Shown here: positions 1 to 10,000 of the stretch, one piece after another
Position numbering within the stretch: the first letter of the stretch is position 1
How the letters are laid out: every line of letters begins with the position of its first letter
Assembly: GCA_020217035.1 (NCBI GenBank)
Contig: JAIWOG010000285.1
Location: 1-10,000, forward strand
Direction of reading: 5' to 3'
DNA from: Magnetospirillum sp.
GTDB lineage: Bacteria; Pseudomonadota; Alphaproteobacteria; Rhodospirillales; Magnetospirillaceae
Length of the DNA: 10,000 nucleotides
The notes under the pieces: model-generated
Databases searched by the model: none
What the model saw: only the letters and a program-made list of their open reading frames with translations
Told to the model about the DNA's origin: nothing
Position numbers and translations under genes: made by a program

Positions 1-1312
1 GTGCGCCTATATCATCAAGCCCAAGAAGGGCTTCGAGCCCATCGCCACCGCCGCCCACTTCGCCGCCGAATCCTCGACCGGCACCAACGTGGAGGTATGC
101 ACCACCGACGACTTCACCCGCGGCGTCGACGCCCTGGTCTATGAGATGACCGAACAGGCCGACGGCGACTGGCTGATGAAGATCGCCTATCCCAACGACT
201 TGTTCGACCGCAATGTCAGCGACGGCCGCGCCATGATCGTGTCGTTCCTGACGCTGACCATCGGCAACAACCAGGGCATGAGCGACGTCGAATACGCCAA
301 GATGCACGATTTCTGGGTGCCGCCGGCGATGCTGCAACTGTTCGACGGCCCGGCCATGAACATCGCCGACATGTGGCGGGTGCTGGGCCGTCCCCAGGTC
401 AACGGCGGCATGGTGGTGGGCACCATCATCAAGCCCAAGCTGGGTCTGCGCCCCAAGCCCTTCGCCGACGCCTGCCACCAGTTCTGGCTGGGCGGCGACT
501 TCATCAAGAACGACGAACCCCAGGGCAACCAGGTGTTCTCGCCCATGAAGGAAACCATCGCCCTGGTCGCCGACGCCATGCGCCGGGCCCAGGACGAAAC
601 CGGCGAGGCCAAGCTGTTCTCGGCCAACATCACCGCCGACGACCCGTTCGAGATGATCCGGCGCGGCGAGCTGATCTTGGAAACCTTCGCCGAGAACGCC
701 AGCCACGTCGCCTTCCTGGTGGACGGCTATGTGGGCGGTCCCACCGCCATCACCCTTGCCCGGCGTTACTTCCCCGGCCAGTTCCTGCATTACCACCGGG
801 CTGGCCACGGCGCCGTGACCTCCAAGCAATCCAAGCGCGGCTATTCGGTGCTGACCCACATGAAGATGGCCCGTCTGCAAGGCTCGTCCGGCATCCATAC
901 CGGCACCATGGGTTACGGCAAGATGGAAGGCGAGAAAGCCGAGAAGATGGTCGCCTACATGCTGGAACGCGACGTCGCCGAAGGTCTTTACTACACCCAG
1001 GACTGGCAGGGCATGAAGGCCACCACGCCGATCATCTCGGGCGGCATGAACGCCCTTCGCCTGCCCGGCTTCTTCGACAATTTGGGCCATTCCAACGTCA
1101 TCCAGACCTCGGGCGGCGGCGCCTTCGGCCACAAGGACGGCGGCACGGTGGGGGCCAAGTCCCTGCGTCTGGCCCACGAAGCCTGGCGCCGCGGCGTCAA
1201 CCTGGTGGATTACGCCATGGAACACCCCGAACTGAAGGGCGCCTTCGAAAGCTTCCAGGCCGACGCCGACGCGCTGTATCCGGGCTGGCGGGACAAACTG
1301 AAGGTCCGCTAG
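1..1312 (+). CDS. cbbM: Form II RuBisCO large subunit (5' truncated by the window)
   Basis: Ribulose-1,5-bisphosphate carboxylase/oxygenase, form II, the CO2-fixing enzyme of the Calvin cycle; it acts in the cytoplasm as a homodimer-based enzyme without small subunits. The reading frame is open from base 2 and ends at TAG 1310-1312, giving 436 residues. Compared with the R. rubrum enzyme as I remember it (466 aa), about 25 N-terminal residues lie outside the window. Visible signatures are [14 protein letters not shown] with the active-site lysine, [11 protein letters not shown] with the lysine that is carbamylated (codon 506-508, equivalent to K191 in R. rubrum), HYHRAGHGA, and the loop-6 lysine in [10 protein letters not shown] followed by [10 protein letters not shown] three-residue insertion relative to R. 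rubrum lies around 150-180. All catalytic motifs are intact. Phosphoribulokinase follows after 87 bp on the same strand, so the two are probably co-transcribed. Identification is near certain from family knowledge. Confidence 0.98.
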
Positions 1313-1342
1313 AGCACCCGGTAAAAATGGAGTATGGGAAAA

Positions 1343-1362
1343 GCGGGCGGCAACAAGCCCGC
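1343..1362 (+). other. Small hairpin between cbbM and phosphoribulokinase
   Basis: GCGGGC (1343-1348) and GCCCGC (1357-1362) form a perfect 6-bp stem with an 8-nt loop in the cbbM-cbbP spacer. No T-run follows, so it is not a convincing terminator. It could stabilise the cbbM end of the message or partly attenuate read-through, which would fit the usual need for much more RuBisCO than kinase. That role is inference. Confidence 0.3.
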
Positions 1363-1399
1363 CCCCTGCTCCGGATGGAGAGAGAGGAAGGCCAGCATC

Positions 1400-2293
1400 A
1401 TGTCGAGGAAGCATCCCATCATCGCCGTCACCGGTTCGTCCGGCGCCGGGACAAGCACCGTCAAGGAAGCGTTCGAACACATGTTCCGACGCGAGGGCAT
1501 CAAGCCGGCCATCGTCGAAGGCGACAGCTTCCACCGCTATAACCGCGTCGACATGAAGAAGACCATGGCGGAAGCCGAGAAAAGCGGCAACCGCACTTTT
1601 TCCCATTTCGGCGCCGAGGCCAATCTGTTCGGCGAACTGGAAGAACTGTTCCAGCGTTATGGCGAAACCGGGCGCGGCCGCCGTCGCTTCTATGTCCACA
1701 ACGACGAGGAAGCGCAACGCTTCGCCCAGCACAACGTCAAGTCAGGCGAGTTCACCCCCTGGGAGGACATGGCCGACAACACCGACCTGCTGTTCTACGA
1801 GGGCCTGCACGGCTGCGTGGTGACCAAGGAACACAACGTCGCCCAACATGCCGACCTGAAGATCGGCGTGGTTCCGGTGATCAACCTGGAATGGATTCAG
1901 AAGATTCACCGCGACACCCACATGCGGGGCTATTCCGAGCAAGCGGTGATGGACACCATCCTGCGTCGCATGCACGACTACGTCCACTTCATCGTGCCGC
2001 AATTCAAGCTGACCGACATCAACTTCCAACGGGTGCCCATCGTCGACACCTCGGACCCCATCATCGCCCGCGACATCCCCAGCGCCGACGAAAGCCTGGT
2101 GGTCATCCGCTTCAGGAAGCCCGACCGCTTCCGCGTCGACTTCCCCTTCCTGCTGCAGATGATCAAGGATTCGTGGATGAGCCGGCGCAACACCATCGTG
2201 GTGCCGGGCGGCAAGATGGGCCTGGCCATGGAATTGATCCTTACCCCGATCCTTCGCCGGATCATGGAGGACCGCAAGTCCCTGATGGGATGA
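1400..2293 (+). CDS. cbbP: Phosphoribulokinase, class I bacterial type
   Basis: ATP-dependent kinase that turns ribulose-5-phosphate into ribulose-1,5-bisphosphate, the RuBisCO substrate, in the cytoplasm. The 297-residue protein matches the usual proteobacterial length (about 290). It has a P-loop GSSGAGTST (12-20), GDSFHRYNR with D42 and H45 at exactly the positions of the catalytic Asp and His in the Rhodobacter sphaeroides enzyme, THFSHF-like TFSHFGAEAN (66-75), FYEGLHG (132-138), EWIQKIHRD (164-172) with the second catalytic Asp, and DTSDPF-type and SWMSR motifs near the C-terminus. The frame is also open upstream to ATG 1334, but ATG 1400 is chosen because it restores the family numbering and sits 8 bases after the purine-rich site AGAGGAAGG (1383-1391). 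It lies 87 bp downstream of cbbM and is closed by a strong terminator, so it is the last gene of this cbb transcript. Residues contacting NADH effectors were not examined. Confidence 0.97.
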   Translation: MSRKHPIIAVTGSSGAGTSTVKEAFEHMFRREGIKPAIVEGDSFHRYNRVDMKKTMAEAEKSGNRTFSHFGAEANLFGELEELFQRYGETGRGRRRFYVHNDEEAQRFAQHNVKSGEFTPWEDMADNTDLLFYEGLHGCVVTKEHNVAQHADLKIGVVPVINLEWIQKIHRDTHMRGYSEQAVMDTILRRMHDYVHFIVPQFKLTDINFQRVPIVDTSDPIIARDIPSADESLVVIRFRKPDRFRVDFPFLLQMIKDSWMSRRNTIVVPGGKMGLAMELILTPILRRIMEDRKSLMG

Positions 2294-2328
2294 GCGGTTC
2301 ACCGCGACCCGACGGGGGAGCCACACTG

Positions 2329-2363
2329 CCGGCGTTCCGGGCCACCGGGACGCCGGATCTTTA
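2329..2363 (+). terminator. Terminator of the cbb operon
   Basis: A 12-bp stem, CCGGCGTTCCGG (2329-2340) against CCGGGACGCCGG (2345-2356), has one G-T pair and a 4-nt loop GCCA. It is followed by ATCTTTA. The T-tract is short but the stem is very stable and sits 35 bp after the phosphoribulokinase stop, which is typical of intrinsic termination. Confidence 0.8.
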
Positions 2364-2371
2364 TGCTTGGC

Positions 2372-2400
2372 TTGAAAACAAGCTGCCGCGGGGTTAGTCT
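2372..2400 (+). promoter_or_regulatory. Sigma70-like promoter for the DUF2087 gene leader
   Basis: TTGAAA (2372-2377) and TAGTCT (2395-2400) are separated by 17 bases. The start of transcription would be near A2407, leaving a leader of about 150 nt before ATG 2558. It lies just past the cbb terminator, so the downstream gene has its own transcription unit. This is a consensus match only. Confidence 0.5.
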
Positions 2401-2406
2401 GCGCCC

Positions 2407-2557
2407 ATGGTCGGCAGTTCACCAAGGCGTCGCTGTCCCGCACGGGAAGCTAAACCTGCCTCAACTTTCTTTCGGCTCTGACTTTCATCCCGGTGCCGAG
2501 TCGTCAAGACAGCGACCCGCGACAAATCCTCTTATCGGCACGACCCGAGGATAAGTC
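2407..2557 (+). promoter_or_regulatory. Structured 5' leader of the DUF2087 gene, possible riboregulator
   Basis: This spacer folds on inspection. P1 is a perfect 9-bp helix, GTCGCTGTC (2429-2437) with GACAGCGAC (2508-2516), extendable outward by two G-C pairs past a bulged C2428. P2 is GCAC-GGGA (2440-2447) with TCCC-g-GTGC (2488-2496), 8 bp with one bulge. P1 and P2 are joined by 2 nt on the left and an 11-nt single strand (2497-2507) on the right. P2 encloses a 40-nt loop. A separate hairpin near the start codon covers the Shine-Dalgarno site (listed separately). The shape, a closed domain plus an expression platform, resembles a riboswitch or protein-binding leader. It matches no class whose consensus I can recall. 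A free small RNA is the main alternative. Confidence 0.45.
2526..2555 (+). promoter_or_regulatory. Hairpin that can hide the Shine-Dalgarno site
   Basis: The ribosome binding site GAGG (2547-2550), 7 bases before ATG 2558, can pair inside ATCCTC (2526-2531) with GAGGAT (2547-2552). An overlapping alternative, CTTATC (2531-2536) with GATAAG (2550-2555) plus GG with CC inside, leaves most of GAGG in a bulge. The two helices exclude each other, so initiation could be switched. The pairing is seen; the switching is inference. Confidence 0.45.
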
Positions 2558-3097
2558 ATGACCAGAACCGTTCTTCCCCTGATCGCCGCCGACGTCTCGC
2601 AAATGGCCCGACAAATGTCGCGCGAATTGGCCGGCTGCGACGGCAACCCCAGCCATGTTCAGATGCTCAACATGCTGGCCCGCTCGGCCGGGTTTCGCAA
2701 TTTCCAACACTTGAAGGCGCAGTGGGACGCCCAAGAGCGTCTGTCGCAACCGCCTTCGCCGGTGGAACCGGTGGACCATCGCCGTGTGCTGCGGGTCAGT
2801 CGCCATTTCGACCAGGACGGCAAATTGCTGCGATGGCCGAAAAAGGACAGCGAACGCCGGTTGTGCCTGTGGGTGCTGTGGTCGGAAATCCCCGCCGGTC
2901 GCAACCTCAGCGAAGCCGAAATCAACCAGCGTTTGACGGAAAACCACCTGTTCGGCGACCACGCATTGCTGCGGCGTTGCTTGTGCGAACTGAAGATGAT
3001 GGATCGCACGGTGGATGGTCGCGTCTATCGAAGGATGGAAAGCCGGCCACCGGCCGATGCCCGAGCCCTGATCCGACATCTGCGGCATAAGCGCTGA
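2558..3097 (+). CDS. DUF2087 domain-containing protein of unknown function
   Basis: A 179-residue, probably cytoplasmic protein with no signal peptide or membrane segment. Residues 90-160 fit the DUF2087 pattern: LRWPKKDSERRLCLWVL (90-107), then the segment NLSEAEINQRL (116-126) and FGDHALLRRCLCELKMMDR (132-150), ending in DGRVYRR. The family has a small winged-helix-like fold and is often linked to transcription regulators, but its biochemical role is not established. The N-terminus carries HVQMLNMLARSAGFRNFQHLKA (roughly 33-54), a helix pair whose GFRNFQHLKA part recurs in other small proteins; its function is unknown to me. The start is ATG 2558 with GAGG at 2547-2550. It has its own promoter and a long folded leader, and it ends at a strong terminator, so it is monocistronic. 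Possible roles are a DNA-binding regulator or a stress protein. No link to the neighbouring Calvin genes can be shown. Confidence 0.8.
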   Translation: MTRTVLPLIAADVSQMARQMSRELAGCDGNPSHVQMLNMLARSAGFRNFQHLKAQWDAQERLSQPPSPVEPVDHRRVLRVSRHFDQDGKLLRWPKKDSERRLCLWVLWSEIPAGRNLSEAEINQRLTENHLFGDHALLRRCLCELKMMDRTVDGRVYRRMESRPPADARALIRHLRHKR

Positions 3098-3103
3098 AAT
3101 AAC

Positions 3104-3138
3104 GGGGGGAAAGCGTTGGGGACGCTTTCCCCCCTTTT
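3104..3138 (+). terminator. Terminator of the DUF2087 gene
   Basis: A perfect 13-bp stem, GGGGGGAAAGCGT (3104-3116) with ACGCTTTCCCCCC (3122-3134), has a TGGGG loop and is followed by TTTT (3135-3138). It begins 7 bp after the stop codon. It is also hairpin 1 of the array below. Confidence 0.85.
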
Positions 3139-3360
3139 CCTGTCGTCATCGGTGTTGGGGTTCACGACCGCTGACGAAGGGGGACGGAGGAAGAACGTTT
3201 TGGGGGCCGTTCTTCCTCCTAGGGGAAATTCCGCCGTACTGGGGTTCGGGGACGTAGCGAGCGGAATTCCCCCATTCGCATTGGATGAGAGAGGCTCCGT
3301 TGGGGGCGAAGCCTCTCTCCCCACGCCGCCGCGACGTTTGGGGTTCGGGGACATGGCGGC
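3104..3360. repeat. Array of six hairpins with similar G-rich loops
   Basis: Six inverted repeats follow one another between two convergent genes. H1 is 3104-3116/3122-3134 (13 bp). H2 is 3143-3153/3167-3177 (10 bp, one mismatch). H3 is 3186-3197/3208-3219 (12 bp, perfect). H4 is 3222-3234/3261-3272 (12 bp, one bulged A). H5 is 3287-3296/3310-3319 (10 bp, perfect). H6 is 3325-3330/3355-3360 (6 bp). The stems differ completely, but the loops agree. Odd units carry TTGGGG, followed by G or A; even units carry TGGGGTTC, extended in H4 and H6 to TGGGGTTCGGGGAC (3240-3253 and 3339-3352, 99 bp apart). H1 works as a terminator by its looks. Several could end transcription from either side. The shared loops with changing stems point to selection on the hairpin or to a repeat family. 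Confidence 0.8.
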
Positions 3361-3374
3361 AGCGTGGATCGGAT

Positions 3375-5177
3375 TCAGGCGGCGCGGACCTCCTTTTCCT
3401 CGACGGTCTTCGCCTGGGCCACCGGCAAAGAGAAACTGAAGACGCTGCCTTCGCCGGGATTGGAATGCACCCAAACCCGGCCGCCCATGTGCTCGACCAT
3501 GCGCCGCACGATGGCCAAGCCGATGCCGGTTCCTTCCGCGCCCGCCTGAAGGCCGTTCAGACGGTGGAAAACCTCGAACAGCTTGACCCGGTCGCGGGAT
3601 TCGATGCCGATGCCGTTATCGGCCACCGAAAACACCGTGGCGTCGCCGTCGCGGCGGCAACTGACCCGCACCATCGGCCGAATACCGGGCGCCACGTAGC
3701 GGATGGCGTTGTCCAGCAACTGGGTGAAGATTTCGGTCAACGCCTTTTCGTCCACCATCACGCTTGGCAGCGGCTCGACCACGATACTGGCATTGCTGGC
3801 ATGAATGGTGTCGCCCAGACGGTCCAAGGCGTTGGTCACCGCGGTGCTGCTGCTGACAACAGCGTCGACGCCGGGAATCTGGTCGACGGCGACGAAGCTT
3901 TGCAGATCCTTGACCAGCTTGCGCATGCGCTGGGCGCCGTCGACGACATGGGCCATGTAGCCGCGACCTTCGTCATCCAGGACCGAGGACGCGTGGCTGG
4001 ACAGCAACTGGGCATAGGCCACCACCCGTCGCAACGGCTCTTGCAGGTCGTGGGCGGCCACTTCTGCGATGCGTTCCAGGTCGACCACATAGCGGCGCAG
4101 ACGATGACGGCTGGCCAGCAATTCGGCCTTCTTCACCGCCAGGTCGGCGGCGATGGCCTCCTGTGTCCGCACCATGCGATACAACACCATCAACGCCGCC
4201 CCCAAGGCCAGGGTGACGGCGCCGCCGATGGACAGATGCCAGGCCACCGAAGACTGAAACGGAGCCAGGATGTCGGCTTTGGATCGCCCCACCAACACCG
4301 ACAAAGGCAAGGATGCCAAGGGACGGACGCTGACCAGACGCTCATGGCTGTCATACGGCCCATGGGTTTCCTGGGTGACCGACTGGCGGTTCAGCACCGC
4401 GTCACGCAACAAGCCGCCTTCCAGGCTTTGCCCCAAGAAATCGCCATTGCCATGGGACGCAACCCGGGCCACCCCGTCGGTGCCGACCACGGCGATGGCT
4501 CCATCAGCGCCGACGTCGATGGCGTTGTAGAACTCTCCCAGATAATTGGGGTCCAGCGAAATCACCAGCACGCCGGCGAAATGGCCGGCGCGGTCGTCCA
4601 GTCGGCGGGTCAGTTGGATCGACCACTTGCCGGAAGCCCGTCCCAAAACCGGCTTGCTGACGAACAATTGGTCGACACCGCCGTGGCGATGCACGCTGAA
4701 ATGTTCGCGGTCGGACAAATCCATGCGCTTGAAGCCGGGCACGTTGCTGTCGGCCAGCCAGCCATCGGCGCCAATGCGGGCGATTTGCACCGAAACCCGC
4801 TTCAGGATGACGCTGTTGGCCACCGAGCGGTTCAGGTCGAAACCGTCCGGGTTCTGCTGGAACTCGGCCCGTAGGTACAACAAGGTCTGATCCAGGCCGG
4901 TGATGGTGCGCAGGATGTGTTCGTCGAAGGCCCGCGCCAGGTTGGCGGTGTCGGCGCCGGCGCTGGCCAGCACGCGACGATGTTCCGACGCCAGGCTGAC
5001 GACGATGGCCAGCCACACGAACGCCAGCAGCAGGACGCCGAACAAGGCCACGGCACGGGCGGCCCGCACCTTCACCGGGCCATGCCCCAAGGAAGAGGAC
5101 ACGTTCACAGCCGCCCCACCGACACAAAGCTGGCCGTCGCCTTGGAGCGCGGTCCATGACCGCGAGCCAACGCCCAT
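3375..5177 (-). CDS. Membrane sensor histidine kinase with a PDC/dCache-type sensor domain
   Basis: Sensor kinase of a two-component system, in the inner membrane. Up to 600 residues. Membrane segments are at about 43-65 and 314-336; the roughly 245 residues between them are periplasmic. Segments such as LDQTLLYL, REHF, SGKWSIQLTRRL, FAGVLVISLDP and DGAIAVVG resemble the PDC1 sensor often found on cyclic-di-GMP enzymes and kinases, which binds small ligands; the ligand is unknown. A short coiled coil (about 337-370) leads to HisKA with phospho-acceptor H376 in AAHDLQEPLRR. The ATPase domain has an N-box with N490, G1 DNGIG (520-524), F-box FEVF (534-537) and G2 GTGIGL (549-554). There is no receiver or PAS domain. 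Start uncertain: ATG 5177 gives the longest form, but GTG 5108 or GTG 5075 lie closer to the first membrane segment, and no site has a good ribosome binding sequence. The likely partner is the divergent regulator at 5399. Confidence 0.92.
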   Translation of the reverse strand: MGVGSRSWTALQGDGQLCVGGAAVNVSSSLGHGPVKVRAARAVALFGVLLLAFVWLAIVVSLASEHRRVLASAGADTANLARAFDEHILRTITGLDQTLLYLRAEFQQNPDGFDLNRSVANSVILKRVSVQIARIGADGWLADSNVPGFKRMDLSDREHFSVHRHGGVDQLFVSKPVLGRASGKWSIQLTRRLDDRAGHFAGVLVISLDPNYLGEFYNAIDVGADGAIAVVGTDGVARVASHGNGDFLGQSLEGGLLRDAVLNRQSVTQETHGPYDSHERLVSVRPLASLPLSVLVGRSKADILAPFQSSVAWHLSIGGAVTLALGAALMVLYRMVRTQEAIAADLAVKKAELLASRHRLRRYVVDLERIAEVAAHDLQEPLRRVVAYAQLLSSHASSVLDDEGRGYMAHVVDGAQRMRKLVKDLQSFVAVDQIPGVDAVVSSSTAVTNALDRLGDTIHASNASIVVEPLPSVMVDEKALTEIFTQLLDNAIRYVAPGIRPMVRVSCRRDGDATVFSVADNGIGIESRDRVKLFEVFHRLNGLQAGAEGTGIGLAIVRRMVEHMGGRVWVHSNPGEGSVFSFSLPVAQAKTVEEKEVRAA

Positions 5178-5268
5178 CCCTGTGCGGCGACGGCCGTCCC
5201 GATGACCGGAACAAGGGGATTATGATCGACGCGCCCCGACATCGTCAGGCTGGACCTCCGCATTTGGT

Positions 5269-5296
5269 GCTATAACTTATAACTGCCCCCTTTCAA
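5269..5296 (-). promoter_or_regulatory. Possible promoter of the histidine kinase gene
   Basis: On the minus strand TTGAAA (complement of 5291-5296) and TATAGC (complement of 5269-5274) are 16 bases apart, which would start transcription near 5262. The stretch also holds the short repeat TATAACTTATAAC (5271-5283), the only AT-rich patch in this intergenic region. Consensus match only. Confidence 0.35.
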
Positions 5297-5324
5297 TGGA
5301 ATATCGGGTGTGCTTGAATTCGTG

Positions 5325-5356
5325 TGAAACGCCGCATGAACGGGGTGTAAACACCC
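5325..5356 (+). promoter_or_regulatory. Possible operator upstream of the response regulator
   Basis: Three similar half-sites, TGAAAC (5325-5330), TGAACG (5337-5342) and GTAAAC (5347-5352), lie 12 and 10 bp apart, close to the one-turn spacing of direct repeats bound by OmpR/PhoB-family regulators. The last overlaps a perfect palindrome GGGTGTAAACACCC (5343-5356), 42 bp before the GTG start. Self-regulation of the kinase/regulator pair is an inference. Confidence 0.35.
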
Positions 5357-5398
5357 GAAGGGACATCCACTCTGTCCCGCAACCAGAGGAGAGACCAG

Positions 5399-6109
5399 GT
5401 GAACGGACCCGCCAAGGCCCATGTCCTGATCGTCGAGGACGAACCGGTCACCCGCGCCAAGCTTGCCGCCCATCTGGTTTCCGAGGGCTTCCAGGTCAGC
5501 GAGGCCGCCGACGCCCGCGACATGCGCACCATCGTGTCGCGCACCGTGCCCGATGTCGTCTTGCTGGATATCAACCTGCCCGACGAAAGCGGTCTGATCC
5601 TGGCCCGCGACCTGCGCGCCAAATCGTCGGTGGGCATCATCCTGGTCACCGCGCGGCAAGACGAAACCGACCGCATCGTCGGCCTGGAATTGGGCGCCGA
5701 CGACTACATCACCAAGCCGTTCAACGCCCGTGAGTTGGCGGTCAGGGTGCGCAACCTGATCCGCCGCGTCGCCCCCAGCATGGCGGCCGAACGCCAAGCC
5801 AGCGGCGTCTACACCTTTTCCGGCTGGAAACTGGATTGCGACGCCCGCCAATTGATGTCGCCCATGGGGGAATCGGTGCGGCTGACGCGCGGCGAGTTCG
5901 ACGTGCTGGCCGCCCTGGCCCGCAACGCCGGTCGGGCGCTGACCCGCGACCAGTTGCTGGACCTGACCCAGCATGACGGCGAAGCGGTGATCGACCGCAC
6001 CATCGACGTCCTGGTCGGCCGCCTGCGTCGCAAGATCGAAGCCGACCCCAAGCACCCCGCCATCATCGTCACCGTTCACGGCATCGGCTATCGCCTCGCC
6101 GGTTCGTGA
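5399..6109 (+). CDS. OmpR/PhoB-family response regulator, TorR-like
   Basis: Cytoplasmic DNA-binding response regulator, 236 residues, normal for the family. The receiver domain (about 7-120) has the acidic pair E13/D14 in IVEDEP, phospho-acceptor D57 in LLDINLP, T84 in ILVTAR and K106 in TKPFNA. The C-terminal winged helix (about 135-234) has VRLTRGEFDVLAAL, the recognition-helix region DRTIDVLVGRLRRKIE and the wing VTVHGIGYRL, a wording close to TorR/CpxR-type regulators; calling it TorR itself would go too far. The start is GTG 5399, 7 bases after AGAGGAGAG (5385-5393). It is divergent from the kinase at 3375-5177, 221 bp away with the longest kinase start, and is its most likely partner. 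The last codons, encoding HGIGYRLAGS, form the first copy of a 49-bp tandem repeat that continues past the stop codon. Confidence 0.94.
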   Translation: MNGPAKAHVLIVEDEPVTRAKLAAHLVSEGFQVSEAADARDMRTIVSRTVPDVVLLDINLPDESGLILARDLRAKSSVGIILVTARQDETDRIVGLELGADDYITKPFNARELAVRVRNLIRRVAPSMAAERQASGVYTFSGWKLDCDARQLMSPMGESVRLTRGEFDVLAALARNAGRALTRDQLLDLTQHDGEAVIDRTIDVLVGRLRRKIEADPKHPAIIVTVHGIGYRLAGS

Positions 6110-6280
6110 TTCCGCTGCGCTGAGGCACGGCATCGGCTATCGCCTCGCCGGTTCCTGATCCCTCTGCGCTGGGGCACGGCATCGGCTATCGCCTCGCCGG
6201 TTCCTGATTCCGCTGCGCTGGGGCACGGCATCGGCTATCGCCTCGCCGGTTCCTGATTCCGCTGCGCTGGGGCACGGCAT
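6077..6280 (+). repeat. 49-bp tandem repeat grown from the regulator's 3' end
   Basis: Head-to-tail copies begin at 6077, 6126, 6175 and 6224, each exactly 49 bp, with an 8-base stub CACGGCAT at 6273-6280. Every unit begins CACGGCATCGGCTATCGCC. Copies 3 and 4 are identical; copy 2 differs by two bases (ATCCCTC for ATTCCGC), and copy 1 by TTCGTG for TTCCTG and TGAGG for TGGGG. Copy 1 spans the final codons and stop of the response regulator; copies 2-4 are non-coding. There are no spacers, so it is not a CRISPR array. Slippage or unequal exchange is the simplest origin. Confidence 0.93.
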
Positions 6281-6297
6281 GGGATCGACCACGCTCA

Positions 6298-6330
6298 ACC
6301 GTGCGCCATCTTCAACCGGCGCATCACGGT
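6298..6330. other. Hairpin between regulator and small cysteine-rich gene
   Basis: TGCGCC (6302-6307) pairs with GGCGCA (6318-6323), and ACCG (6298-6301) with CGGT (6327-6330) past a 3-nt bulge. It lies between two convergent genes, after the tandem array. No T-run follows on either strand, so termination is uncertain. Confidence 0.3.
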
Positions 6331-6372
6331 AAACCAGGCGAAAGGGGGCCGTCAGGCTGTTTCCGCGGCCTG

Positions 6373-6588
6373 TTAATTGTTCAGGATCGACCGGATCATC
6401 CCCAGCATGCGCTGGGCGGCGTGGGTGCATTCGCCACGCGCCGGACAGCCGCCGGACATGGCGCATTGCATCATTCCGCTGGCGATGGCGTGTCCGCAAG
6501 CCCATTCGCCGCGATCCACATGCGCCGCCGCCCGCTCGACCCGTGGCGGGTAGCATTGGCTGGCATTGCTGGGCGTGGCGGAAATCAT
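6373..6588 (-). CDS. Small cysteine-rich protein, possible metal binder
   Basis: A 71-residue open frame from ATG 6588 to TAA 6373. I do not recognise the family. The protein has Cys at 12, 31, 42, 48 and 54 and His at 23, 33 and 56, with an evenly spaced core C-x5-C-x5-C-T-H (42-56) and WACGH at 29-33. That density of thiols and histidines suggests binding of zinc, iron or an iron-sulfur cluster, or redox chemistry. There is no clear signal peptide or membrane segment, and the tail MLGMIRSILNN is amphipathic. No good Shine-Dalgarno site precedes ATG 6588. A promoter-like TTAGCA-N17-CATAAC lies just upstream (6606-6634). It stands alone, convergent with the regulator and divergent from the lipoprotein operon. 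The cysteine pattern is the main reason to think it real; a chance frame in GC-rich DNA is possible. Confidence 0.55.
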   Translation of the reverse strand: MISATPSNASQCYPPRVERAAAHVDRGEWACGHAIASGMMQCAMSGGCPARGECTHAAQRMLGMIRSILNN

Positions 6589-6605
6589 GGTCCGGACACC
6601 ATCTC

Positions 6606-6634
6606 GTTATGGAACAATTCCACATTGATGCTAA
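6606..6634 (-). promoter_or_regulatory. Possible promoter of the small cysteine-rich gene
   Basis: On the minus strand TTAGCA (complement of 6629-6634) and CATAAC (complement of 6606-6611) are separated by 17 bases, placing a start about 10-15 bases before ATG 6588. Weak match to the sigma70 consensus. Confidence 0.3.
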
Positions 6635-6712
6635 CGCATTCCCCCCCGCGAAGGCAGTGATGGCCTGTACCAAGATGTGACGGCATATGGCGGCGCGGAC
6701 ACTTAACGGTGG

Positions 6713-6740
6713 TTGCCTGAATTCCACCAATCGTTATGAT
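6713..6740 (+). promoter_or_regulatory. Promoter of the lipoprotein/M48 operon
   Basis: TTGCCT (6713-6718) and TATGAT (6735-6740) are 16 bases apart, giving a start near 6747 and a leader of about 18 nt. An inverted repeat GGTGG (6708-6712) / CCACC (6724-6728) flanks and abuts the -35 element and could be an operator. The rest of 6589-6764 shows no other clear element. Confidence 0.5.
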
Positions 6741-6764
6741 TGACCGACACATCTGGGGGGATAC

Positions 6765-7472
6765 ATGACCAAGCCGTTTCGTCTTGCCCTGGCCGTCCTG
6801 CTGGCCTTGTCGGTCAACGCCTGCGCCACCCGCACGCTCAGCACCACCGACAAGCTGAGCCGCGAGGTGGCCCAGCCGAAAATCCTGCTGATGCCGGCCG
6901 ACATCGAGCTGTCGGAACTGACCGCTGGCGGCCTCACCGAACTGAACGCCGAATGGACCCTGACCGGTCAACGCAACCTGAAGACGGCGCTGAACGACCA
7001 TCTGGCCAAGCTGAACGCCCGCTTCAGCGAATACCAGACACTGGCCCAGGACGACCCGCGCCACGACACCTTCCTGCAATTGCAGAAACTGCACGGGGTG
7101 ACCGGTGTCAACATCCGCACCTACGCCTTCCCCCCCGCCCCCGGCCTGCCTGGCAAGGAGGGCAAGTTCAACTGGGCCCTGGGACCGGCGACCTCGATGC
7201 TGGCGGAAAGCACCGACGCCCAATACGCCTTGTTCGTGTGGCTGCGCGACAGCTATACGTCCTCGGGGCGACGCGCCATGCAGATCGCCGCCTCGCTGCT
7301 GTTCGGGGTCCAACTGCAAGGCGGGCAACAAATCGGCTACGCCTCGCTGGTGGATCTGAAGACCGGCGAAATCGTCTGGTTCAACCTTCTGGCCCGCGAA
7401 TCGGGCGACCTGCGCGATCTGGCCTCGGCGCGGGAAAGCGTCGACACCTTGTTGACCGGGTTGCCGAAATGA
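6765..7472 (+). CDS. Lipoprotein of unknown function, first gene of the M48 operon
   Basis: A 235-residue protein with a lipoprotein signal peptide: MTKPFR, a hydrophobic stretch 7-17 and lipobox VNAC with Cys20, so it is probably anchored to a membrane facing the periplasm (residue 21 is Ala, not Asp, which fits outer-membrane sorting by the enterobacterial rule). I do not recognise the family. The C-terminal half, with YALFVWLRD (about 154-162) and a strand reading ASLVDLKTGEIVWFN, faintly recalls the fold of CsgG/GNA1162-type lipoproteins; this is a weak guess. The start ATG 6765 follows the G-rich site TGGGGGGAT. The stop overlaps the next start in an ATGA arrangement (7469-7472), indicating translational coupling with the M48 protease. 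A role in envelope assembly or as a partner of that protease is inferred from the operon only. Confidence 0.85.
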   Translation: MTKPFRLALAVLLALSVNACATRTLSTTDKLSREVAQPKILLMPADIELSELTAGGLTELNAEWTLTGQRNLKTALNDHLAKLNARFSEYQTLAQDDPRHDTFLQLQKLHGVTGVNIRTYAFPPAPGLPGKEGKFNWALGPATSMLAESTDAQYALFVWLRDSYTSSGRRAMQIAASLLFGVQLQGGQQIGYASLVDLKTGEIVWFNLLARESGDLRDLASARESVDTLLTGLPK

Positions 7473-8653
7473 TCGCCCGTCCGTTTCTGTCCCTGGTCGC
7501 CGCCGCCTTGCTGGCCGGTTGCGTCACCCACGAAACCGGATCGGCCACCGGCATCGCCACCGTCAGCCCCGGCTACAAGCCCGACGTCAAGACCGACGAA
7601 GCCGGCATCTGGCTGACCGCCGACAAGGCCGAGGCGGAACTGCTTGATTCCGCCAACCGGGTGCGCGACCCGGCCATCAACGCCTTGGTGTCGGACATGG
7701 TGTGCAAGCTGGCGGCGGAACATTGCGGCGACCTGCGCCCCTATGTGGTGCGGCTGCCGCATTTCAACGCCACCGCCTCGCCCAACGGCAGCATTTCCAT
7801 TTGGAGCGGCTTGCTGATCCGCGCCCGCACCGAATCGGAACTGGCCGCCGTCATCGGGCACGAGATCACCCATTACACCCGCCGTCATTCCCTGGCCCGA
7901 ATCCGCAACGCCCGCGATAACACCGACGTGGCGGCCATCTTCACCTTGCTGGGGGCCGCCGCCGGCATGCCGCAGGTCGTCCAGCTGACCAACGTCATCG
8001 CCGTTGGCAACATCCAGGCGTTTTCCCGCGACAACGAACGCGAATCCGACGCGGAAGGCTTCAACCGCCTGGTCAAGGCCGGCTACGAGCCCGCCGCCGC
8101 CGCCGATGTGTGGAAGCGCATTCTGGACCTCAGGAAGGCCAAGCGCGAATTCGAATACGAAAGCTATGAGGACCGCAGCGTGCGGCTGTTCGTCGCCAGC
8201 CACCCCCCCACCGAAGAGCGCGAGAAAAGCTTGCGCGAACTGGCGGAAAAGGCGGCCAAGCCGACCACGCCGCCGCCGGACCGCCTGCGCCAGGCCCTGG
8301 CCGGCGTGCGCCTGGACTTCCTGCTGGACGAGGTCAAGCTGGGCCAGTTCCGCGAAAGCAAGGCGCTGTTCGAGTTGCTGCTGAAGGACGACCCGCTGCC
8401 CGGTCAGATTCATTACGCCCTGGGCGAGTTGTACCGCAAGCGGGCCAAGGAAGACGACGAGTTGGTGGCGCTTTCGCATTTCCACCAAGCCTGCGAGGCC
8501 GTCGGCGCCCCGCCCGAGGCATTCCGCATGGTCGGAACCATGCGCTGGCGCCGGGGCGAGACCGAACAAGCCAAGGAATATTTCCGCCGCTATCTGAACG
8601 CCGCGCCCAATGCCGGCGACCGCGACCTGATCACCCATTACCTGGGAAGCTGA
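7469..8653 (+). CDS. Lipoprotein M48 zinc metalloprotease with TPR-like tail (BepA-like)
   Basis: A 394-residue peptidase of family M48. The signal peptide ends in lipobox LAGC with Cys18, so it is membrane-anchored in the periplasm. Zinc ligands are H131 and H135 in HEITH (131-135, catalytic E132) and the Glu of SRDNERESD (186-194, probably E190, with D194). SHPPTEER (244-251) matches the conserved His-Pro segment that in BepA supplies a histidine able to cap the active site. A C-terminal helical region (about 280-390), with ALFELLLKDDP, YALGELY and AKEYFRRYLNAAP, looks like TPR repeats. This layout, M48 followed by TPR, is that of BepA/YfgC, which degrades stalled LptD and BamA; LoiP is a lipoprotein M48 in E. 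coli. The start overlaps the preceding stop by four bases, and the next gene begins 2 bases after its stop. All catalytic residues are present. Substrates are unknown. Confidence 0.92.
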   Translation: MIARPFLSLVAAALLAGCVTHETGSATGIATVSPGYKPDVKTDEAGIWLTADKAEAELLDSANRVRDPAINALVSDMVCKLAAEHCGDLRPYVVRLPHFNATASPNGSISIWSGLLIRARTESELAAVIGHEITHYTRRHSLARIRNARDNTDVAAIFTLLGAAAGMPQVVQLTNVIAVGNIQAFSRDNERESDAEGFNRLVKAGYEPAAAADVWKRILDLRKAKREFEYESYEDRSVRLFVASHPPTEEREKSLRELAEKAAKPTTPPPDRLRQALAGVRLDFLLDEVKLGQFRESKALFELLLKDDPLPGQIHYALGELYRKRAKEDDELVALSHFHQACEAVGAPPEAFRMVGTMRWRRGETEQAKEYFRRYLNAAPNAGDRDLITHYLGS

Positions 8654-8655
8654 CC

Positions 8656-9270
8656 ATGACCCGCCGCCTTTTGCCCCTGTTGCTGTTGATCGCCCTGTCC
8701 GCCTGCGAATCCTGGCAGAAGATTTCGCCCGGCGCCGTCAAGCTTTCGGACAAGGCCGAGGTCGTCACCAGCCAAACCTGGAGCGGCCAAGGCGACCGCG
8801 ACGGCTTCGTCTGGACCCAGGACGGGCCGGGCATCGACACCTTCTTCTTCCATCTGGGGATCAAGGACGGCAAGACCCTGTTCGAATCCCAGGACGTGGA
8901 AAAGAACCACAATTTCATCCTGAAGCTGATGAACCGCCAACCGGACCAGATTTCCTTTCGCTTTTCCAAGACCATGACCGAATGGGAAATCGTCGAGTTC
9001 TTCACCACGTCGTGGGGCAAGCTGGCCGGCGACGTGCCGGTGAAGGTGGAAGCCATGGCGCCTTCCAGCCTGGACGGCCATCCCGGCATCCGCTTCCAAT
9101 ATTCCTACACCCCCAAGGATGAACTGCGCCGGCGCGGATTCGGTATCGCCGCCGTGGTGGACGACAAGCTGTATCTGGTTCACTATCTGGGCTCGGCGAT
9201 CTACCACTTCGACAAGAACAAGGCCGAAGCGGAAAAAGTGATCGCCTCGTTGAAGATCAAGAAAGGTTGA
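8656..9270 (+). CDS. Lipoprotein of unknown function within the M48 operon
   Basis: A 204-residue protein with a clear lipoprotein signal: MTRR, a leucine-rich core (5-14) and lipobox LSAC with Cys17, followed by Glu, so probably outer-membrane bound by the usual sorting rule. I do not recognise the family. The mature part is rich in beta-type strands and aromatic residues, for example DTFFFHLGI, GIRFQYSYTP and KLYLVHYLGSAIYHF, ending in a lysine-rich tail. It has no HExxH motif or other catalytic signature I can see. The start is ATG 8656, only 2 bases after the previous stop, with GGGAAGC (8644-8650) as ribosome binding site; the next start is 10 bases after its stop. The placement between two M48 proteases suggests an accessory or substrate-binding role, which is inference. 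Confidence 0.88.
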   Translation: MTRRLLPLLLLIALSACESWQKISPGAVKLSDKAEVVTSQTWSGQGDRDGFVWTQDGPGIDTFFFHLGIKDGKTLFESQDVEKNHNFILKLMNRQPDQISFRFSKTMTEWEIVEFFTTSWGKLAGDVPVKVEAMAPSSLDGHPGIRFQYSYTPKDELRRRGFGIAAVVDDKLYLVHYLGSAIYHFDKNKAEAEKVIASLKIKKG

Positions 9271-9280
9271 GACGAAGCCC

Positions 9281-10000
9281 ATGCATCGCCGTTCCCTGCT
9301 TGCCGGCCTGGCCGCCAGCGCGTTCGCCGCCCCCGCTTACGCCCAGTTCAACCTGGGCAACCTGATCCAGGGTGCCGCCAACGTGGTCAGCGCCTACACC
9401 TCGGGCGAGGCCGACGAAATCCAGATGGGTCAGACCTATTACAAGGATTATCTGGCCAAGTCGGGCGGCGCCTATCCCGACCGCAACGCCCAGGAAGCGC
9501 TCGGCAAGTTCGCCCAACCCATCCTGAAGGCCGCCGACCGCCAGAACCTGCCCTGGGAAGTCACCTTGGTGAAGTCCGACCAGGTCAACGCCTGGGCCCT
9601 GCCCGGCGGCAAGCTGGCCATCAATTCCGCCCTGGTGCGTCACTGCCGCACCCCGGACGAACTGGCCTCGGTCATCGCCCACGAGGTCGGCCACGCCGAC
9701 CTGGGACACGGCCTGTCGCAGGTTCGCAACCAATCCTTGCTGCAAGGGGCCGGCACCATCGGCAAGGAAGCGCTCAGCGCTTGGATGGGCGGCGCCGGCG
9801 CCATCGGCGCCCAGGTGCTGACCGCGCTGGAAGGCCCGCTTTACACCTTGATCCTGTCGGGCTATTCCCGCGACAACGAATTCGAAGCCGATTCCCACAT
9901 CCTGAAGATTTTCGAACGCACCGGCTACGATCCGGACAAGGCCGACGACTTCTTCCACACCCTGATCAAGCTGCACCCGGAATCGGACACCAGCACCACC
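9281..10000 (+). CDS. Second M48 zinc metalloprotease, probably Tat-exported (3' truncated by the window)
   Basis: Open from ATG 9281 to the last base, 240 codons without a stop; the C-terminus lies outside. The signal peptide begins MHRRSLLAGLAA, a twin-arginine-like start, and ends in AYA before Gln22, a signal peptidase I site, so the mature enzyme should be a soluble periplasmic protein, unlike the lipoprotein protease upstream. M48 motifs are HEVGH (134-138, catalytic E135) and SRDNEFEAD (196-204, third zinc ligand E200). WALPGGKLAIN (105-115) is the typical strand before the active site. A Gly/Ala-rich segment at 156-178 could be a hairpin near the membrane or a loop over the active site. 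It is 10 bases downstream of the previous stop and belongs to the same operon. It was identified by direct translation. Whether it also carries a TPR tail cannot be seen. Confidence 0.93.
   Translation, partial: MHRRSLLAGLAASAFAAPAYAQFNLGNLIQGAANVVSAYTSGEADEIQMGQTYYKDYLAKSGGAYPDRNAQEALGKFAQPILKAADRQNLPWEVTLVKSDQVNAWALPGGKLAINSALVRHCRTPDELASVIAHEVGHADLGHGLSQVRNQSLLQGAGTIGKEALSAWMGGAGAIGAQVLTALEGPLYTLILSGYSRDNEFEADSHILKIFERTGYDPDKADDFFHTLIKLHPESDTSTT

Follow-up and report, generated by a model that had tools for sequence, protein, structure and literature searches.

A covarying array of hairpin pairs with near-invariant C-rich loops adjoins a two-component system in Magnetospirillum and its relatives

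Introduction

Why would a bacterium place six hairpins side by side where one terminator would be enough? The question is raised by the window analyzed here, a 10,000-nt stretch of Magnetospirillum sp. DNA (contig JAIWOG010000285.1, positions 1 to 10,000). Its genes encode the RuBisCO large chain, phosphoribulokinase (PRK), a DUF2087 protein, a histidine kinase, an OmpR-type response regulator, and an M48 peptidase, and the six hairpins occupy the space between the stop codons of the DUF2087 and kinase genes. The only Rfam match in the window that reaches its gathering score is a COG3860 RNA (RF02940; 2408-2461, plus strand, 75.4 bits) upstream of the DUF2087 gene; this RNA is also present in L005 and L016.

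Results

Architecture and strand of the array

The window holds six adjacent inverted repeats, as a sequence-only reading had claimed, within coordinates 3104-3367. Folds beat shuffled controls on both strands: 3080-3380 gives z = -4.6 on the plus strand (0/100 shuffles equal), and 3095-3375 gives z = -11.8 on the minus strand (0/200). On the plus strand the loops carry TTGGGG in odd-numbered units and TGGGGTTC(GGGGAC) in even-numbered ones. These words and the unrelatedness of the stems are as that reading described them, except that unit 2 is degenerate and has one C-run. TTGGGG alone is not rare, with 12 occurrences in the window against a shuffle mean of 8.9. Read on the minus strand, GUCCCCGAACCCCA alternates with CCCC(C)AA, with CCCC runs usually numbering two per even (E) loop and one per odd (O) loop.

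The likely order in the RNA is E6-O5-E4-O3-E2-O1, all on the minus strand. E6 (3321-3367) is first in the transcript and has the loop GUCCCCGAACCCCA at 3339-3352; our E-hairpin model, which includes E6 itself, matches at 3327-3364. O5 (3287-3319) follows with the loop CCCCCAA (3300-3306), then E4 (3222-3273), again with GUCCCCGAACCCCA (3240-3253), and O3 (3186-3219), with GCCCCCAAAA (3198-3207). E2 (approximately 3143-3177) has a single C-run in its loop and is degenerate in the window genome (G000), G023, and G024. O1 (3104-3134; loop CCCCA) is last and terminator-like.

The two strands can be told apart by wobble pairs. Stacked internal wobbles favor the kinase strand over the other by 48:6 in Magnetospirillum (g1), 34:0 in the Paramagnetospirillum group (g16), and 8:0 in G003 (g4). 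A strict count in 12 genomes, in which each wobble is flanked by Watson-Crick pairs, gives 49:9 toward the kinase strand, and 73:42 when terminal wobbles are included; a loose count, with stems extending into loops and flanks, is indecisive (137:110, p = 0.098). As the sequences are related, these wobble p-values are nominal. The kinase strand also folds better in 11 of 12 stretches, the exception being G023, which folds slightly better on the other strand; the G031 stretch lay off-center in this comparison and was replaced for the wobble counts.

At least four T are found in the ten bases after the last hairpin in 19 of the 25 genomes with that hairpin parsed, counts that exclude G000, G023, and G024, where the pattern missed it. 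In g16, the kinase strand has 3-8 T per ten bases after the last O hairpin in all 14 genomes (at least four in 12), and the other strand ahead of the first hairpin only 0-2. Tails in g1 help strand choice little, since they range over 1-7 T on the kinase strand versus 1-4 on the other (ten genomes with the last hairpin parsed). Comparison of genomes, through the wobble pairs above all, thus places the RNA on the minus strand, and we are confident that a structured RNA is encoded on the kinase strand. Its loops would be C-rich, rather than G-rich as first described.

Distribution and unit number

Of 13 Magnetospirillum genomes, 12 have an array at the 3' end of the kinase gene. Queried with the C-terminal part of the kinase, the same 12 gave an ortholog of 56-100% identity, and G029 only a 46% match. 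A 15-mer from the even loop was found in 6 of the 55 family genomes, each of them one of the 13 in the same genus. An E-loop-then-O-loop pattern matched 31 of 317 genomes of the order (reversed control, 0/317): 13/13 in g1, 1/1 in g4, 1/1 in g7, 14/17 in g16, and two others. The latter, single matches in G196 and G308, look like chance, as their letters show no hairpin pair; the array is present in 29 of the 317 genomes, all in four genera.

The repeating unit is an E-O hairpin pair, present one, two, or three times in relatives, in keeping with the alternation in three pairs noted earlier. G003 and 12 of the 13 Magnetospirillum genomes have three pairs; G029, whose array is the one recorded for Magnetospirillum sp. 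UT-4, has two, as do 14 g16 genomes; and G010 has one.

An order-wide search with the E model returned ten single weak matches outside the family; L059, the one inspected, is not an array. Scanning genome contigs for an E-E pattern gave 34 stretches, 21 with the kinase or regulator nearby and 13 in other bacteria. In those of the latter that were inspected, the motif sits in other repeats, in stems or unpaired. Repeats containing TCCCCGAACCCC occur in unrelated bacteria (L091, 514-1127; L067, L082, L084, L085, L089), but there the C-run falls in other stems or is left unpaired; they are chance occurrences or belong to other repeat families. Within G000, a 14-mer has two sites, both inside the array, and the other E-model matches are weak (E 0.08 and 0.59), on which grounds we rejected the REP-like or mobile family that the sequence-only reading had raised.

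Stems covary around near-invariant loops

Of the 36 E hairpins in 12 genomes, the E alignment comprises 30, omitting the degenerate E2 of G000, G023, and G024, the E2 of G026 and G027 (13-nt loops), and E4 of G025. Its covariation score is 0.552, versus 0.234 when shuffled and at most 0.331 with the partner slid, and 69% of its cells are paired versus 51% in shuffles. Swapping arms between species lowers the pairing score in g1 from 16.8-25.1 to 8.5-18.4; g16, most of whose stems resemble each other more, shows a smaller drop (16.3-24 to 14.9-21). In g1, arm identity is 0.42-0.54 versus 0.91-0.99 for E loops; O loops vary in length and are 0.56-0.67 identical without gaps. Comparison among relatives therefore shows selection on structure, as had been suggested: stems covary and loops are nearly invariant. 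The sequence-only reading had named missing copies in relatives and missing compensatory stem changes as grounds for abandoning it; relatives have the array and show compensatory stem changes.

Of the 65 E units caught by the pattern, 59 have a loop that reads [G/A]UCCCCGAACCCCA; the pattern missed units in G000, G023, G024, G028, and G030, where folds show C-rich loops. CCCC is present in 131 of 133 parsed loops (28 genomes), a count that holds partly by construction, as O loops were located by their C-run; RNAfold loops agree. CUCC occurs in none of these 133.

The regulator, the kinase, and loci lacking one part

The array lies directly 3' of the stop codon of the histidine kinase gene (3375-5177, minus strand; dCache-like, HisKA, and HATPase domains). 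The called start at 5177 is doubtful and probably too far upstream. It overlaps, in another frame, a small 45-codon ORF (MSGRVDHNPLVPVIGTAVAAQGWALARG...) that lies between regulator and kinase (5105-5242, minus). A core like AAxGWA from this ORF recurs in eight Magnetospirillum leaders, those of UT-4 and the window among them; none was seen in g16 leaders. We considered pairing between the G-rich kinase-leader motif GGGATGGGC and the array and dropped it, because codons of this small conserved ORF explain the motif better. At its other end, the kinase of many array-bearing relatives terminates by eye in (Q/R/K)E(A/V)..AA-stop, encoded by GGAGG...GCCGCCTGA (window 3375-3400, minus). This stretch is partly self-complementary and puts a Shine-Dalgarno-like GGAGG immediately upstream of the array; the three array-less g16 genomes differ by eye at this end.

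Divergent from the kinase is an OmpR/TorR-like response regulator (5399-6109, plus strand), whose best model, TorR, falls below its cut-off (258 versus 275 bits). Comparison ties this regulator to the array: it lies beyond the kinase or array, at 83.6-99.6% identity, in 18 of 21 named loci, and the other three loci end first. A regulator search at E 1e-75 in 18 chosen family genomes matched only G003, G010, G034, G035, and G041, indicating that, among the 18 genomes searched, it is confined to array-bearing genera. The far side varies among relatives: DUF2087 or PRK lies there in some, and in others what by eye resembles a chemoreceptor gene, a permease gene, or a stretch of transposase. A position between convergent genes therefore describes the window and is not a conserved trait; only the kinase/response-regulator side is kept.

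Comparison also reveals two loci that have the array and lack the kinase. UT-4 has the regulator (90.6%), the divergent leader, and then the array, with no kinase gene between; a short stretch of its leader matches relatives, which suggests from sequence that the kinase was deleted there. G010 has the regulator (84%) and a leader, then a single E-O pair with the terminator-like tail ATTTCTTTTG after it; there is no kinase at this locus, and a 41% kinase homolog lies elsewhere in the genome. From TATAGT, a stand-alone RNA of approximately 125 nt is predicted in G010 (fold z = -3.5). Conversely, G034, G035, and G041 have, besides the regulator (86-87%), a shorter ORF, kinase-like by eye. No array was seen behind that ORF (best E-model match, E 1.37), and the window kinase has no match in these three genomes at E 1e-60.

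A promoter-like leader

A promoter-like region (5277-5352, minus strand) precedes the kinase gene, with NTTYAY hexamers 11 bp apart (from 5352, 5341, and 5330), an AATTCAA block, and TATAA at 5281-5277. Of 23 leaders, which include three from array-less genomes, 19 have two NTTYAY hexamers 10-12 bp apart, versus a mean of 0.075 and a maximum of 1/23 in letter shuffles, a comparison to be read knowing that the hexamer set was picked after viewing the leaders. AATTCAA lies downstream of the hexamers in 18 of the 23 and TATA[A/G/T] within 140 nt in 20. In both the window and UT-4, TATAA lies at a distance of 71 from the first repeat. Among the 23 leaders scanned, those of G010, X1bin, Loc0078, and M. 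moscoviense lack the hexamer pair. Regulators of the OmpR family commonly use tandem sites with a spacing of about 11 bp. We infer that the divergent regulator controls kinase and array.

Matches to known RNA families

Cuckoo RNAs have the loop motif CCUCC. Since CUCC is absent from all 133 parsed loops and the host gene does not encode a DUF1127 protein (none of the 8 window proteins scanned matched DUF1127), we rejected a cuckoo or anti-Shine-Dalgarno RNA. In a relaxed Rfam scan, the window matched BjrC80 (RF02354) over the full model (1-162 of 162, minus strand) at 39.2 bits, not reaching the gathering score of 80. No sX13 entry appeared among the relaxed matches, a result whose weight depends on Rfam having one. 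BjrC80 scored 40.9-44.0 bits in the loci of four of eight relatives, and no match was listed at E 0.01 in the other four. Genome-wide searches gave nothing above the cut-off in four genomes, and 3 of 14 control genomes also matched at E up to 1. These searches failed to list the G000 array found by direct scan, showing that their filters lose such matches. At E 0.001, RF02354 matched 2 of 385 genomes of the class, one above cut-off. The latter match is the true BjrC80 locus L137 (genome G673, approximately 1500-1660), which has four hairpins, three with C-run loops (CCCCC, CCCCCC, and UCCCCCCA), and ends in the UCCCCCCA loop and a T-rich tail. Its neighbors are a DegP-like gene (by eye) before and an OmpR-type regulator of 29% identity after.

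For M. gryphiswaldense, the available part of one report lists a sub-threshold BjrC80 match of 181 nt on the minus strand at 43.4 bits, in coordinates of another assembly (CP027526, 1,456,741-1,456,921), with no transcription start site (TSS) listed for it in oxic or anoxic growth (PMC9549626). Our match in G021 is 181 nt, minus strand, and 43.5 bits, an agreement that makes it almost certain that the published match is the array. A text search of the open-licence literature for BjrC80 found PMC9549626 alone, and text searches of the same literature gave no description of the array beyond this line; subscription papers lay mostly outside their scope.

Discussion

We propose that the array is a regulatory RNA of the neighboring two-component system. 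A promoter diverging from the response-regulator gene would drive its transcription, on which account the array is probably an output of that system. The histidine-kinase transcript, read from the minus strand, would carry it at its 3' end, and the RNA may be released by processing of that mRNA or be made on its own, in G010 as the stand-alone RNA of about 125 nt; the last O hairpin would act as a terminator-like end of the E-O pairs. The CCCC loops would then pair in trans with runs of G close to the start codons of target mRNAs, with putative effects on these targets, and several like sites could give multivalent binding. The reading as a multivalent regulatory RNA draws on analogy with sX13, LhrC, and CcsR1-4. 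We regard the whole, a 3'UTR-derived or stand-alone RNA acting in trans through C-rich loops on G-runs, as evenly poised between right and wrong, and the chances of the G-run pairing itself, suggested by that analogy, as balanced too. Short of even confidence, though plausible, is a version in which one to three copies of the two-hairpin cassette are the RNA output of a TorR/ArcA-like system, placed in the kinase 3'UTR or, where the kinase is absent, directly under the regulator's divergent promoter, and in which near-invariant loops bind one specific partner at several sites per molecule.

Several observations bear on the pairing step. The complement of the E-loop 11-mer has 49 sites outside the array in 13 genomes, compared with 40 for the reversed control. 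With no clear enrichment, a long antisense target is not evident, which leaves short G-run seeds or a protein partner. The ribosome site of MSR-1 is given as aaGGAG in the available part of PMC9549626, and as the loops lack CUCC, general Shine-Dalgarno pairing would be weak. The missing TSS noted above fits a 3'UTR origin, and also silence, in the part of that source available. The conserved GAA between the C-runs exceeds what short seeds need and counts against G-run pairing. Also counting against the proposed mechanism are G034, G035, and G041, in which regulator and kinase-like gene occur with no array; the lack of the 11-bp repeat pair in G010; g1 tails that are not always T-rich; and the G023 fold.

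The same GAA linker, within a 14-nt E loop that is near-invariant across genera, speaks for a protein-binding scaffold. Such a scaffold would use its loops, with two CCCC(R)A motifs in most E and one in O, to titrate or recruit an RNA-binding protein, as CsrB and RsmZ do with CsrA through another motif. Several loop copies on diverging stems and the lack of a clearly enriched full antisense target fit it as well, but no partner protein is known and a single E-O pair is enough in G010; we hold it to be doubtful, if worth pursuing. Quite unlikely, in our judgment, is a purely cis-acting role, in which a multi-hairpin 3'UTR terminates the kinase mRNA and protects it from 3' exonucleases. Strong stems directly after the stop codon and the T-rich g16 tails (12 of 14 genomes) accord with it, but protection has no need of invariant loops, and UT-4 and G010 keep the hairpins without a kinase gene at the locus. 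The sequence-only reading's suggestion that the array does more than one terminator's job is supported.

A plus-strand RNA or a DNA-level element with G-rich loops, REP-like or cruciform, appears very improbable. The plus strand does fold better than shuffles, and T-runs by eye flank unit 1 on its plus side in several species, but the wobble bias favors the minus strand, the array occupies a single locus, and the plus-side neighbor is not conserved. That the array is a distant member of the BjrC80 family is unlikely, although descent from a common origin is possible. The full-length minus-strand match, the scores in four of the eight relatives' loci, and the C-runs in three of four hairpin loops of L137, with its UCCCCCCA loop and T-rich tail at the end, speak for kinship. 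Every score is far under the gathering score, however, the other four loci had no match, and control genomes matched too; moreover, the GAACCCCA loop is absent from L137, and its gene neighbors differ, down to a regulator of 29% identity.

If the regulatory-RNA reading is correct, it adds an RNA arm to an uncharacterized two-component system of Magnetospirillum and its relatives; M. gryphiswaldense, a tractable model for magnetosome formation, is very probably among the bearers. The loci form a natural series, with one, two, or three hairpin pairs, with and without the kinase, and with a kinase-like gene lacking the array. With this series one can ask for what reason a regulatory RNA would carry copies of a single loop on stems that change, and whether small RNAs arise from, or become, the 3'UTRs of the regulators they serve.

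Among known systems, BjrC80 resembles the array as a multi-hairpin RNA with C-runs in several loops, a terminator-like last hairpin, and a sub-threshold model match; it differs in loop sequence and gene neighbors, and the array scores about half its gathering score. CcsR1-4, or cuckoo RNAs, of the CIN1 locus of Rhodobacter are tandem small RNAs cut from a 3'UTR, according to the available parts of PMC10253847 and PMC8625941. They share with the array tandem related RNAs in the 3'UTR of an alphaproteobacterial protein gene and a Rho-independent terminator at the end, but their host gene encodes a DUF1127 protein, and that of the array a kinase (same passages). LhrC sRNAs of Listeria, as the available text of PMC4132741 presents them, are multicopy, under control of the LisRK two-component system, and equipped with redundant UCCC target-pairing sites. 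Redundant C-run sites, multiple copies, and the tie to a two-component system recall the array; in contrast, the text describes five genes with their own promoters, outside any kinase 3'UTR (PMC4132741). The sX13 RNA of Xanthomonas has CCCC in the apical loops of stable stems, as the array does, and represses mRNAs with G-runs near the start codon; the available passages present three stems in one sRNA and do not describe E-O repetition or a kinase 3'UTR (PMC3771888). The feature that marks C-rich-loop base-pairing sRNAs as a functional class, CCCC or UCCC in apical loops of stable stems, is found in the array.
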